From Clostridia bacterium (GTDB lineage: Bacteria; Bacillota; Clostridia; Oscillospirales; CAG-272), in NCBI GenBank assembly GCA_017504995.1, contig JAFVQC010000017.1, forward strand, positions 1 through 48,556: a stretch of 48,556 nucleotides of DNA, read 5' to 3'. Of this stretch, positions 1 through 21,644 are shown piece by piece. The notes beneath the pieces are model-generated. The model worked only from the letters and a program-made list of their open reading frames with translations, did not search any database and was not told where the DNA came from. Both the position numbers and the translations under genes were made by a program. Each line of letters opens with the position of its first letter. Position 1 is the first letter of the stretch.

Positions 1-791
1 ACTAAAAGTCCTACGAAGGAAAGCAGACCGCAAACGCTGACTGCCGCACCTGCCAACAGTGCGGAAAGCAGTAAGAATATTACGCGCATCACGTTCGTAT
101 TCATTCCAAGCCCTTTGGCGTTTTCGTCACCAAGAGTCAGCACGTCAAGCTCGTTTGAAAATGTCAAGAGTATCAAGACGGATATTAAAACGATCACTGT
201 GGCAGGTATCAGCTTTGCGTAAGTCACCGATGAAAAGTCACCTATCTTAAAATCGAGGCTCTGTATACTGATTTCGGGATTGAAGGTGGTGACTGTATCG
301 GATATCGCGCCGAGCAAGGCGTTCAGCGCTACGCCCATCAATATGACCGTTCCTCTTGAAGCCCCCCATTTTCTTGCTCCGAGACTGACAAGCATCACGG
401 TCAAGAATGCACCGACAAAAGCAAACAGAGAGAGCCTCCAGCCACCTATGATACCCAATGCCGAGCCAATAGTGACAGCAAGACCTGCACCCGCATTTAC
501 ACCGATAATGCTCGGAGATGCCAATCGGTTCGCAAGCACGCCTTGAATGACCGCGCCTGACACGGCGAGCGCCATACCGCATATAAGACTTCCAAGAACT
601 CTCGGCAATCTGACGTATAGTAATATTCTTGCCTCGGGACTCTGCATATCTCCCGCTATAAGCGACGAAAGCATGTCCGAAAGCCTCAGCTCCGATGATC
701 CGAAAAGCACACCGAGAACGGCAGCAAGAAGCAATAAAAGGATCGCTATACCGTATATATATCCTATCTTATTTTTTCGTAAGCTTATCAT
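1..791 (-). CDS. FecCD-family iron/cobalamin ABC transporter permease (partial, C-terminus off window)
   Basis: This is an integral membrane permease of the FecCD/BtuC family, which moves iron-siderophore, heme or cobalamin across the cytoplasmic membrane with a binding lipoprotein and an ATPase. Reading leftward from an ATG at 791, about 263 codons are present. They give strongly hydrophobic segments and family landmarks: a VRLPRVLGSLICGMALAVSG segment, a GVLANRLASPSIIGVNAGAG-like loop, and LAGAAVSVCGLLSFVGLLV at the cut end. Full-length members have about 330 residues, so roughly 70 are missing at the left edge. The start lies 20 bases inside the end of the lipoprotein gene, which implies translational coupling. 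Codons are rich in ATA, TTA and AGA, unlike the GCC/ATC-rich genes farther right. The substrate cannot be told from sequence alone. Confidence 0.88.
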   Translation of the reverse strand, partial: MISLRKNKIGYIYGIAILLLLLAAVLGVLFGSSELRLSDMLSSLIAGDMQSPEARILLYVRLPRVLGSLICGMALAVSGAVIQGVLANRLASPSIIGVNAGAGLAVTIGSALGIIGGWRLSLFAFVGAFLTVMLVSLGARKWGASRGTVILMGVALNALLGAISDTVTTFNPEISIQSLDFKIGDFSSVTYAKLIPATVIVLISVLILLTFSNELDVLTLGDENAKGLGMNTNVMRVIFLLLSALLAGAAVSVCGLLSFVGLL

Positions 792-1728
792 AAAGTATTC
801 CGTATGACTCTGCCCAGCGCGCGTTAGGCTTCAGATTGAACAGCGTTTTATCCATAACGTGCAATCTACCGTTTTTCACCGCATCAAGCGTACTCAGGGC
901 AGGGTTCTCCTTTATCAGATTTTCAAGCGACTGCTTCGCCGCCTCTGTATCACTTCCCATCGTTACCACGAAAATGTGGTACGGCTCTTCCCGAATGATC
1001 GCTTCTACACTCAAATTTTCAAGCAAGCTCGTGTTACTGTCGGCAATATTGATACAGCCCATATCGTGAAGCATTTCGCCAAGGATCGTTCCACTGCTGC
1101 CTTTTGCCTTTACAAAGCTTGAAGCGGCTCGCAGCAATAGGACTTTTCGTTCATCTTCGGGAATATCTGAATTTTTGTACTCTGCTTTTATTTCATCGAT
1201 CTGTGCCTTGATCGCAAGTCCGTTCTGTTCGTACAGATCCTTGCGTTCTGTAATGTCGGTACAAATATCGAGCATTTTCAGATAATCGTCGAAGCTATCC
1301 ACGTCAAAATATGCAACGGCAATTCCCATAGCTTCCAGTGTTTCCCTCATCTCAACATTGGAGGCAGTGGACGCGCTTGCGATAACAAAATCGGGGTCTG
1401 CTGATATGAGAAGCTCAAGACTCGGAGAATGCGCGCCGCCGATATTGACGGCATCGTCAAGCTCAAGCCCGAAATCCTCCCAAGCATCCTCAGCAGATGC
1501 GCAAAGCTTGCCGCCCGCAAGCATCCAAACGTCCGCGAAGCTTCCAAGAAGGGCGGCAACTCGCTCGGGGCTCTTTTTGATATTCACCTCTCGACCGAGG
1601 GCATCGGTAAAGACTACCGTATTTTTGTTCTCGTTTTTCGGTTGACCGTTACACGCTGACATAGAAAACAGAACTGCTGTGATCAACAGAAAAGCGACGA
1701 TGTTCTTTATTGTTTTTACTTTCTTCAT
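769..1728 (-). CDS. Iron/cobalamin-type ABC transporter substrate-binding lipoprotein
   Basis: This is the extracytoplasmic solute receptor for the adjacent permease, 319 residues, with the FecB/BtuF-type fold. The N-terminus has a lysine-rich start, a hydrophobic helix at residues 9-23 and a lipobox ending in MSAC, so Cys26 is the predicted lipidated residue. The mature part opens with TDALGREVNIKKSPERVAALLGSFADVW, typical of periplasmic-binding-protein domains for metal chelates. A second lobe begins near residue 190 after a long helix. It is transcribed leftward from the promoter shared with the reductase-like gene at 1832, suggesting the transported compound and the reductase are co-regulated. 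The ligand could be a siderophore, heme, cobalamin or another metal chelate; the sequence does not decide. Confidence 0.88.
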   Translation of the reverse strand: MKKVKTIKNIVAFLLITAVLFSMSACNGQPKNENKNTVVFTDALGREVNIKKSPERVAALLGSFADVWMLAGGKLCASAEDAWEDFGLELDDAVNIGGAHSPSLELLISADPDFVIASASTASNVEMRETLEAMGIAVAYFDVDSFDDYLKMLDICTDITERKDLYEQNGLAIKAQIDEIKAEYKNSDIPEDERKVLLLRAASSFVKAKGSSGTILGEMLHDMGCINIADSNTSLLENLSVEAIIREEPYHIFVVTMGSDTEAAKQSLENLIKENPALSTLDAVKNGRLHVMDKTLFNLKPNARWAESYGILYDKLTKK

Positions 1729-1747
1729 ATATCCTCTTAAATGGCGT

Positions 1748-1817
1748 ATTTCATTGACAAATCACGGAAAACGTGATATAATATTATATCATAAAAACAG
1801 ATGTAAGTCAATGAAAT
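1748..1817. promoter_or_regulatory. Symmetric overlapping divergent promoter pair around a shared palindrome
   Basis: The rightward promoter has TTGACA at 1754-1759, a 17-base spacer and TATAAT at 1777-1782 with an extended TGa. The leftward promoter has TTGACT at 1811-1806, a 17-base spacer and TATAAT at 1788-1783, also with TGa. Both -10 boxes lie in one perfect 18-base palindrome, TGATATAATATTATATCA (1774-1791). The -35 regions lie in 11-base inverted arms at 1748-1758 and 1807-1817, on the same dyad at 1782.5. The two polymerases would compete for the same DNA. The gene at 1832 has a GAGGT ribosome-binding site at 1819-1823. Confidence 0.85.
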
Positions 1818-1831
1818 CGAGGTAAACAGCT

Positions 1832-2758
1832 ATGTTGACGAATGAACAAATAACAAGTGTTAAAGGAAGAGGCTTTCTCAGAAACAGAGGAACCGACTGC
1901 TTCTCAGGCAGAATCGTTACGGTCGCAGGACTTTTTACTCCCGACCAGCTTCACGCTATCGCCGAATGCTCCGAGAAATACGGCAACGGCAAAGTAATAT
2001 TTACCGCAAGACTTGCCGCAGAGATCGTTGGAATTCCGTTTGATAAAATTCCCGAAGCGGAGGCATTTATGGCAGAGCGTGGATTGTATTTTGGCGGCAC
2101 GGGCGCAAAGGTTCGTCCTATTACCGCTTGTAAAGGCACGACCTGCGTTTACGGAAACATTGATACACAGGCACTTGCAAAGGTTATATACGATAAGTTT
2201 TACATAGGGATGCGCGACGTGAAGCTTCCGCATAAATTCAAGATCGGAGTAGGCGGCTGTCCGAACAGCTGTATGAAGCCGAGTCTTAATGACGTAGGCG
2301 TTGAGGGATGCCGTGCGTTCTCTTTTGACAGTGAGCTTTGCCGAGGCTGTAAAAAATGTGCCGTTGCCGAAAGCTGTCCGACAAAGGCAGTATCCGTTGT
2401 CAACGGAAAGGCGGTTATCGATACGTGTAAATGCACAAGCTGCGGCGTTTGCGTTGGAAAATGTCCTTTCGGCGCTGTTCCCAAGGAAGCGGCATCGGTC
2501 TGCCGTATCTTTGTGGGTGGAACTTGGGGAAAGACTCAGCGTATGGGAACACTCTTGAATAACGTATATTCGGCAGATGAAGTTCCGACCGTTATTGAAA
2601 AGGTCATGCTTTGGTATAAGGAAAACGGATATGTCAAGGAGCGTCTTGGTGCAACAGTTGACCGTATAGGCACGGATGCTCTTGAGGCTGCTCTTGCAAC
2701 GAATGAACTGCTTGACAGAAAAGAGGAGATTTTAGCAAATCCTCTGTTTGAAAGATAA
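1832..2758 (+). CDS. Siroheme/[4Fe-4S] sulfite/nitrite reductase-like protein with built-in ferredoxin domain
   Basis: This 308-residue cytoplasmic redox protein combines a nitrite/sulfite reductase ferredoxin-like half-domain (about residues 5-75), a siroheme/[4Fe-4S] binding domain and a two-cluster ferredoxin insert. The coupled siroheme-cluster cysteines are visible as CKGTTC (Cys100, Cys105) and GGCPNSC (Cys143, Cys147). The first pair is spaced C-x4-C rather than the common C-x5-C. The ferredoxin part has Cys170, 173, 176 and 182, then Cys201, 204, 207 and 211. The layout resembles AsrC-type anaerobic sulfite reductases and small dissimilatory-like reductases, but no electron-donating partner subunits are adjacent. 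The divergent metal-chelate transporter may supply a cofactor; that is inference. Start chosen from the GAGGT site 8 bases upstream. Confidence 0.82.
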   Translation: MLTNEQITSVKGRGFLRNRGTDCFSGRIVTVAGLFTPDQLHAIAECSEKYGNGKVIFTARLAAEIVGIPFDKIPEAEAFMAERGLYFGGTGAKVRPITACKGTTCVYGNIDTQALAKVIYDKFYIGMRDVKLPHKFKIGVGGCPNSCMKPSLNDVGVEGCRAFSFDSELCRGCKKCAVAESCPTKAVSVVNGKAVIDTCKCTSCGVCVGKCPFGAVPKEAASVCRIFVGGTWGKTQRMGTLLNNVYSADEVPTVIEKVMLWYKENGYVKERLGATVDRIGTDALEAALATNELLDRKEEILANPLFER

Positions 2759-2791: not shown

Positions 2792-2825
2792 GAGGGCTGA
2801 CGATTGATTTCGTCAGCCCTCTTTG
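2792..2825 (+). terminator. Rho-independent terminator of the reductase-like gene
   Basis: A perfect 12-base-pair stem (2792-2803 with 2810-2821, GAGGGCTGACGA and its complement) has a six-base loop and is followed by a short T run. It begins 33 bases after the stop codon. Confidence 0.85.
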
Positions 2826-2993
2826 TTATGCGTTCTTCGCTTGTTTTTTCATTTCAGCGATTTCCGTTTTCATGGTTTTTATCAGCTCGGCGAGCTTTTC
2901 CTCGCATTCCTCTCGTGTCTTGGCGTACACGTTCTTGGATATGCGTTTGCCGTTCACTCTCGGCGTGAACCGTCCTTCGTAGAGGTGGTCATT
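2826..2993 (-). pseudogene. Remnant resembling the arm-binding segment of a mobile-element integrase
   Basis: Read leftward, the frame gives about 55 residues beginning NDHLYEGRFTPRVNGKR, continuing NVYAKTREECEEKLAELIK and ending in a TAA at 2828-2826. From memory this pattern occurs in integrases or related proteins of clostridial conjugative transposons of Tn916 type. The frame is closed by a TGA immediately upstream (2996-2994) and has no start codon near its 5' end, so it is a fragment, not a gene. It sits exactly between the reductase terminator and the end of the ABC-2 operon, as expected of a scar from an element that brought in or rearranged one flank. The family assignment is uncertain. 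Confidence 0.42.
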
Positions 2994-20559: not shown

Positions 20560-21399
20560 ATGGAAAATAAAATGTTTGACGGCAAGGTCGCCGTCGTTAC
20601 CGGCGCAGGCGGCGTTCTCTGCTCCTCCTTTGCCGAGGAAATGGCAAGAAGGGGCGCAAAGGTTGCTTTGCTGGATCTGAATCTTGACGCGGCGGAAGCG
20701 GTTGCCGCCTCCATTCGCGCCCACGGCGGTGTGGCTATGGCGTATCGGGCAGACGTTCTTGACCGAGCGTGTCTTGACGAGCTTCATGCAAAAATTCTCG
20801 CCGATCTTGGCAAGTGTGACATTCTGATCAACGGCGCGGGCGGCAACAGCCCCCGTTGCACCACCGCCCACGAATATTACGAGGAGGGCGACGAGCTGAC
20901 CGACGAGGTCAAGACCTTTTTCAATCTGGACCGAAAGGATTTCGATTTCGTGTTCGGACTGAACATCATGGGAACGCTGCTTCCCACGCAGGTGTTTGCG
21001 CCCGATCTGCTACACCGTGACGGCTGTATCGTAAACGTGTCGTCGATGAACGCCTTCCGTCCCTTGACGAAGATCCCCGCCTACAGCGCGGCAAAATCCG
21101 CCGTGTCCAACTTCACCCAGTGGCTTGCGGTACACTTTGCGGGCTGTGGCATTCGTGTCAACGCCATCGCGCCCGGGTTCTTCGTGACCAAGCAGAATCA
21201 AACGCTTCTTTTCAACGAGGACGGCACTCCTACTCCCAGAACCGACAAGATCCTTCGCGCTACCCCCATGGGACGCTTCGGCAAGCCCGAGGAGCTGTTG
21301 GGCACGCTGGTCTGGCTCTGCGACAACAACGCCTCCGCCTTCGTTACGGGCGTGGTCGTTCCCGTAGACGGCGGCTTCTCCGCTTACTCCGGCGTATAA
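20560..21399 (+). CDS. uxuB: SDR-type fructuronate reductase (D-mannonate oxidoreductase)
   Basis: This 279-residue short-chain dehydrogenase probably reduces D-fructuronate to D-mannonate between the UxaC and UxuA steps. The nucleotide motif is TGAGGVLCSS, in which a Cys replaces the usual third Gly; as I recall, this is normal for the Bacillus YjmF-type enzyme. The catalytic NVSSMNAF serine and PAYSAAK tyrosine/lysine are intact, and the long insert containing the acidic EYYEEGDELTDEVK stretch is typical of this group. Of two nearby ATGs the one at 20560 is chosen because GTGAGG lies 8 bases before it. The symbol refers to function; the protein is unrelated to the long-chain E. coli UxuB. 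Confidence 0.85.
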   Translation: MENKMFDGKVAVVTGAGGVLCSSFAEEMARRGAKVALLDLNLDAAEAVAASIRAHGGVAMAYRADVLDRACLDELHAKILADLGKCDILINGAGGNSPRCTTAHEYYEEGDELTDEVKTFFNLDRKDFDFVFGLNIMGTLLPTQVFAPDLLHRDGCIVNVSSMNAFRPLTKIPAYSAAKSAVSNFTQWLAVHFAGCGIRVNAIAPGFFVTKQNQTLLFNEDGTPTPRTDKILRATPMGRFGKPEELLGTLVWLCDNNASAFVTGVVVPVDGGFSAYSGV

Positions 21400-21419
21400 G
21401 GACGCGGGGGGACGCGTTA

Positions 21420-21484
21420 GGGAAAACCTTCTTTCGAAAAGGTTTCCCCTATAACCCCTTCCAAGAACTTGCTAGCAAGTTCTT
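21420..21484. repeat. Palindromic repeat, family A copy 1
   Basis: Two adjacent hairpins: GGGAAAACCTT with AAGGTTTCCC (21420-21430/21439-21448), then a perfect 22-base palindrome at 21463-21484 (AAGAACTTGC and its complement). The same unit occurs inverted at 43831-43877. No T run follows, so it is a repeat rather than a clear terminator. Confidence 0.7.
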
Positions 21485-21555
21485 AGGTGGACGTTATAGT
21501 TAGTACGCTCGACCATTGTAAATATCCGAATCTGTTTATTTCGTGTCTAAGGAAA

Positions 21556-21587
21556 AAATCCGTCGGACACTGCGTACCGACGGATTT
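21556..21587. terminator. 11-base-pair hairpin with a T run on the minus side only
   Basis: AAATCCGTCGG (21556-21566) pairs with CCGACGGATTT (21577-21587). Six T's follow it only for leftward transcription, although the flanking genes run rightward. It may protect mRNA or stop antisense transcription. The rest of 21400-21644 holds the family A repeat and the AGGAG site of the next gene. Confidence 0.5.
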
Positions 21588-21644
21588 GGATGCGAAAAGG
21601 ATACCGACAAAAAACATCAAAAACCAATAATTAGGAGAAAAAAG

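Follow-up and report, generated by a model that had tools for sequence, protein, structure and literature searches.

Prokaryotic bidirectional promoters were reportedly described by Warman et al. in Nature Microbiology in 2021. Such promoters have a near-symmetric -10 region with opposite starts a few bases apart, take one polymerase at once and often lie between functionally linked divergent genes. The promoters analysed here share the symmetric -10 region and a place between probably linked divergent genes, and by prediction they also share the close starts and the single polymerase. The fepD gene encodes a FecCD-type permease. In E. coli, fepD/entS is one of five bidirectional promoters tested in PMC12825309. 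Unless activated, all five are basally too weak for the two directions to compete, and improving one -35 made them do so, with the exception of bdcR. A bidirectional promoter has been defined, in PMC10268837, by divergent starts on opposite strands that lie 7-25 bp apart.

Here we analysed a window, meaning the whole stretch of 48,556 nucleotides, whose left end carries a transporter gene divergent from its partner over one predicted bidirectional promoter. This arrangement resembles E. coli fepD/entS (PMC12825309), but the partner in the window is a reductase-like protein. The -10 sequences of the two directions form one near-symmetric unit (an 18-bp palindrome) in which the hexamers abut and share no bases, whereas both directions of the E. 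coli promoters use a common -10 element (PMC12825309). In addition, unlike the five E. coli promoters with the low basal activity stated there, both -35 boxes in the window are near consensus, and the pairs found in relatives lie up to 36 bp apart. Bidirectional promoters are already known, and the one in the window is an unusually strong and conserved variant of them.

The promoter pair and its genes

The intergenic region has 103 bp and contains both promoters. The promoter of the reductase-like gene (1754..1782, + strand) matches the consensus at 12 of 12 positions, with -35 TTGACA at 1754-1759, a 17-bp spacer, -10 TATAAT at 1777-1782 and an extended TG at 1774-1775. The promoter of the transporter genes (1783..1811, - strand) matches at 11 of 12, with -35 TTGACT at 1811-1806, a 17-bp spacer, -10 TATAAT at 1788-1783 and an extended TG at 1791-1790. 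Both are kept in relatives. The first 6000 positions of the window hold 13 promoter-like sites (8.4 expected from shuffles), the top two being the facing pair and the other 11 scoring 9. A perfect 18-bp palindrome, formed by the two abutting extended -10 elements, was computed at 1774..1791, and the outer arms at 1748..1758 (left) and 1807..1817 (right), which hold the first five bases of the + and of the - strand -35, are centred at the same place. The initial annotation had described near-consensus promoters with extended TG on both strands, one 18-base palindrome holding the -10 boxes and 11-base inverted arms at the -35 regions, and we recovered all three exactly.

It had also expected complementary 5' ends of about 14 bases, which are not expected in the window because the predicted transcripts do not overlap. 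With starts placed 7 bases behind each -10, at about 1789 (+) and 1776 (-), the separation derived from the -10 positions is about 13 bp (11-17 if purine starts are allowed), and the predicted transcripts diverge with about 12 untranscribed bases between them. Predicted overlap needs a gap between the -10 boxes of about 13 or more, which is found in 12 of the 26 head-to-head loci described below.

Domain matches indicate that the gene at 1832..2758 (+ strand) encodes a protein of 308 aa with NIR_SIR and NIR_SIR_ferr domains and 4Fe-4S motifs. Its best NCBIfam match, TIGR02912, has 107 bits, below the 324-bit cut-off, and its best NCBIfam matches (sulfite reductase subunit C, DsrB and DsrA) fall far below their cut-offs, so we use the label 'reductase-like' only. 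On the - strand, domain matches indicate an ABC transporter substrate-binding protein of 319 aa with Peripla_BP_2 (769..1728) and a FecCD-type permease (3..782) that runs past the left edge of the window. Likely ribosome-binding sites were read from the sequence for the reductase-like gene (GAGG, 1819..1822, + strand) and for the binding-protein gene (AAGAGGA, 1732..1738, - strand), and a terminator-like hairpin was computed 3' of the reductase-like gene (2792..2821, + strand). The FecCD-type ABC transporter and the siroheme/4Fe-4S reductase-like protein are probably functional partners.

Loci are designated below by L and genomes by G, with G000 being the genome that holds the window. The spacer palindrome TCACG-GAAAA-CGTGA (1762-1776) was rejected as an operator or 5' hairpin, being altered in L001 and L003 and gone in L026. 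As an observation by eye, the transporter RNA, if begun at 1777, would open with AUCACG-UUUUC-CGUGAU (- strand, 1761-1777), a possible 5'-terminal hairpin that is intact in L004, has one mismatch in L001 and L003 and is lost in L026.

Chance and abundance of facing promoters

The window contains two perfect palindromes of at least 18 bp (the second at 21463-21484), against 0.2 in first-order Markov shuffles. Most of the symmetry at the promoter pair is a forced consequence of two consensus promoters facing each other at gap 0, and the surplus beyond the promoters amounts to a single base next to each -10 and six bases on the outer side of each -35. Separately, the second palindrome, of 22 bp, overlaps a stretch of about 200 bp (21389-21600) that has similar copies in many G000 contigs and represents a dispersed repeat family.

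Promoter strength is not special to this locus, since near-consensus promoters (at most 2 mismatches) are common in its own genome, with 255 on the + and 232 on the - strand (controls 46 and 44). If these promoters were placed at random, about 1.1 facing pairs would be expected with gap 0-30 and 0.04 with gap 0; a related pattern returned two facing pairs (that of the window and L041) and three back-to-back pairs, with zero in the controls. Given the 1.1 facing pairs expected by chance, the single instance is weak and conservation carries the case. Across 146 family genomes, facing is the rarer arrangement, with 104 facing pairs in 79 genomes (control pattern 3) versus 519 back-to-back pairs in 133 genomes (control pattern 4). 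The dyad was rejected as a regulon motif, as a search of the own genome for the 18-mer palindrome with up to 2 mismatches found just one further near-copy (1 mismatch). Additionally, a plasmid collection probed with 141 bp gave no match, and a pattern scan of viral contigs for a gap-0 pair gave 2 stretches.

Conservation among head-to-head relatives

Reductase loci were collected from three sources: a scan of genome contigs for the reductase (38 loci), a profile search that matched 91 of 394 genomes of the order (30 loci read, including our own), and the facing-pair pattern (2 loci, L062 and L061, a duplicate of L014). Before counting we left out L034, L037, L038 and L035 (reductase start missing), 11 loci with duplicate promoter cores, and the duplicates L080 and L082. 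There remained 26 distinct head-to-head loci, in which the binding-protein gene is divergent from the reductase-like gene; these are related rather than independent, the close groups being the window, L001 and L026; L008 and L009; L010 and L013; and L014 and L062. The promoter scan demanded an A and a T at two of the -10 positions and 4 matching bases out of 6 in each hexamer, allowed gaps between -10 boxes of up to 60 bp in head-to-head loci and covered 300 bp upstream of the reductase in the same-strand and no-transporter loci. The search for transporters used tblastn with an E cut-off of 1e-20 and was confined to the fetched flanks.

A facing near-consensus pair with a score of 21-24 out of 24 was present in all 26 head-to-head loci (25 of 25 when L062, which entered through the facing-pair pattern itself, is taken out). 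The score reached 24 in nine loci; both strands had at least 11 of 12 matches in 23, and both had the TG in 20. By comparison, 21 was reached by none of the 12 loci with the transporter downstream on the same strand (best 19/24), by none of the 19 loci with no transporter found (best 19/24), where flanks of 1.5-3 kb or contig ends may conceal one, and by 2 of 5200 Markov shuffles of the same 26 regions. This persistence supports the earlier proposal that a divergent promoter serves both genes. L005 stands outside all counts: the script filed it as having no transporter found, its transporter gene being cut by the contig end. Its 24 codons from an ATG resemble a binding-protein start and its facing pair scores 24/24 at gap 34, and it is a probable 27th head-to-head case.

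Among the 25 loci with 17-bp spacers, pairwise identity was 0.72-1.0 at the -35 positions and 0.85-1.0 at the -10 positions, the one exception being the third -10 base of the + strand (0.41). These hexamer values are partly built in by the match requirement of the scan, the shuffles being the fair control. Identity was 0.77-0.92 at the TG bases and at one base upstream of the TG (- strand), and 0.23-0.53 at most spacer positions. The hexamers are mostly kept and the spacers are near random, which indicates selection on both promoters.

The gaps between the -10 boxes were -2, 0 (seven loci), 1, 2, 3, 3, 9, 9, 14, 17, 21, 21, 22, 23, 26, 29, 30, 34, 34 and 36, and the predicted starts fall outside the range of 7-25 bp in 14 of the 26 loci (gap 9 or more). 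The symmetry emphasised by the initial annotation is thus lost in relatives that keep the gene pair, and what they retain is the facing pair. The dyad is a by-product of gap 0, and it is the facing pair that is conserved.

Competition and alternative explanations

The overlap of polymerase footprints, assumed to span -55..+20, is 52 bp at gap 0 and 16-54 bp over the full set of gaps, so mutual exclusion is likely at every gap; the earlier statement that the site takes one polymerase at a time is supported as geometry. Our main reading is a used promoter pair with mutual exclusion, to which we give a probability of about 0.7. The window would then hold a strong bidirectional promoter of the sigma-A (housekeeping) type that serves the transporter and the reductase-like gene, with two near-consensus extended -10 promoters facing each other and their -10 boxes abutting. 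Both promoters would be used, with the polymerase bound in only one orientation at any moment. As the two directions are both near consensus, the site would lie in the regime where the measured E. coli bidirectional promoters begin to compete, and in that regime the two transcripts would share one loading site and so cap each other. Regulatory use of this competition, taken alone, we place distinctly below even odds.

The most likely alternative accepts both the promoter pair and the exclusion and departs from the main reading only on use. It holds that compactness and inheritance are enough: ancestral facing promoters, each kept by purifying selection, would overlap without regulatory use. 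In the reductase tree, where 21 of 55 inner branches are weak and drawn open, all 26 head-to-head loci belong to a single group of 32 rows (support 90); gap length drifts freely, and one ancestor could explain the constant orientation with no role for competition. Against this, the gaps stay at 36 bp or less though 60 were allowed, inside the range of footprint overlap, and the pair remains close despite an intervening gene, whether this encodes DUF134 (L015, L028) or a 133-aa protein (L062). We regard this explanation as plausible, at only a little under even odds. The 133-aa protein, located between the facing pair and the reductase in L062 and L075, has no Pfam match and looks membrane-like by eye.

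Gene order elsewhere also bears on use. All 12 other loci with a detected transporter have it on the same strand as the reductase and downstream of it, an order that points more to joint expression than to a toggle. The binding proteins of these 12 loci have 33-48% identity with that of the window and therefore are perhaps not orthologous to it.

A second alternative takes the dyad for an operator, bound by a dimeric regulator that covers both -10 boxes, with the promoter likeness secondary. It can draw on the perfect 18-bp palindrome with its 11-bp outer arms and on palindrome-like spacers noticed by eye in some other facing pairs of family genomes. Furthermore, over the 9-10 bases outside the -35, likeness within a locus exceeds that between loci (p 0.005 for 24 loci; 0.007-0.011 for 19 pruned loci), with 9 of 10 symmetric bases in L018, and the base beside the -10 shows a similar excess (p 0.02 unpruned, 0.13 pruned). 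The second facing pair of the own genome, L041 (G000:C93:28114-28187), also speaks for it: two facing near-consensus promoters at gap 16 adjoin an S24/HTH (LexA-like) repressor gene. L041 and the pair of the window are alike in their facing near-consensus promoters, but the L041 spacer holds TCGGA-TT-TCCGA beside the repressor gene, and the pair of the window keeps no counterpart. Against it, relatives have gaps anywhere from -2 to 36, which leaves no fixed dyad; spacer bases are no more symmetric within loci than between them (p 0.59 for 24 loci, 0.80 for 19 pruned loci), and the single further 18-mer near-copy in the own genome likewise argues against an operator. Inside the pair, no spacer position exceeded 0.53 identity apart from promoter elements and extended -10 bases, and by eye no operator was recognised in the window. 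A family scan for regulators among nine chosen neighbour proteins (besides DUF134) gave five non-regulator families and, for the other four, no family. We consider an operator at the dyad improbable; the pair of the window may have a lineage-specific one. Facing pairs similar to that of L041, with TTCGGAAAT in a spacer, were observed in the genus-mates G093 and G136.

DUF134 and its candidate operator

In L015, L028 and L005 (transporter gene cut), a DUF134 (UPF0251) gene lies between the facing pair and the reductase, as the first gene before the reductase, and L012 has a DUF134 remnant as read by eye. The sequence GGCATATGCC stands between the facing -10 boxes in L005, L015 and L028, and GTCATATGAC stands behind the -10 in L016 and L021, where DUF134 is present and no transporter was found; GGCATATGCC also occurs at two promoter-distant places (L022 and L029). 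In a separate survey, DUF134 matched in 85 of 245 genomes, 66 of them over the cut-off, and 30 loci were read (L106-L135). Of the 29 usable loci, 21 had CATATG in the 250 bp upstream of DUF134, where shuffles gave 2.2 and random stretches 3.8, and 17 of 28 CATATG sites were embedded in a -35-like TGACA. The pattern TTGACATATGNC-N11-TANNNT gave 68 sites in 54 of the 245 genomes (control pattern 4 sites), 26 of them within 320 bp of a DUF134 gene. Both the gene and the site were present in 32 genomes, DUF134 only in 34, the site only in 22 and neither in 157 (Fisher p 8.6e-9, not corrected for kinship). From these sequence patterns we predict that DUF134 is an autorepressor that binds a CATATG-centred palindrome at the -35 box. 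In the three sister loci, this repressor would probably shut both directions through the CATATG palindrome inside the pair.

A structure model of DUF134 (pLDDT 65) had its best matches in sigma region 4 domains; the Foldseek E values began at 0.035, and no match reached 0.001. At that model confidence and without a match at E 0.001, a fold like that of sigma region 4 is a lead from the model. A sequence search for a solved relative found none, and among the papers listed by a literature search on this family, no title, abstract start or passage shown describes a regulator.

That the pair in the window is jointly repressed by a DUF134 protein encoded elsewhere is very improbable: the three loci with DUF134 before the reductase and GGCATATGCC between the -10 boxes and the CATATG enrichment in the further loci speak for such control, but it is contradicted by the absence of both gene and operator. 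Searches for DUF134 came up empty in the own genome (77% complete) and in G019 (99% complete, same 58 bp present), and CATATG is missing from the facing region of the window and from all 23 facing regions without DUF134 or a remnant. The lineage of the window would have lost DUF134 or never had it.

Transfer of the cassette

Positions 1-2723 of the window are 98.9% identical to a contig of G019, which belongs to another genus, and positions 1-2829 are 97% identical to L026; the genus-mates G032 and G093 gave no match to the reductase profile. GC content is 0.47-0.48 over the first 12 kb and 0.50-0.56 beyond them. A wrongly binned contig was considered, as the locus matches another genus, and was ruled out for 20-26 kb of the window, which has dispersed repeats in common with many G000 contigs and has its nearest match in the genus-mate G093. 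This segment is native to the own genome, which makes transfer of the left end likelier than wrong binning. Sequence identity thus suggests that the transporter-reductase cassette (1-2830) was probably transferred recently. Where the near-identical stretch has its right edge, 2826-2990 (- strand) resembles by eye the N-terminal arm-binding portion of a tyrosine integrase and may be left over from a mobile element.

Implications

The comparison yields concrete predictions of the operator and of the fold for DUF134 (UPF0251). It also uncovers, in one locus family, natural promoters that are near consensus both ways and form a gap series from -2 to 36 bp. Such natural alleles make it possible to measure how spacing affects polymerase competition, transcript overlap and noise. 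As a tentative and still doubtful proposal, this would be a family of naturally strong facing promoters that operate under polymerase competition, a regime avoided by the E. coli bidirectional promoters tested. The free-standing DUF134, with its possible sigma region 4-like fold, may in sister lineages gate the pair through a -35 box doubled into a palindrome (TTGACA-TA-TGTCAA type), and lineages lacking DUF134, including that of the window, may use promoter collision alone to cap and couple the output of the transporter and the reductase.
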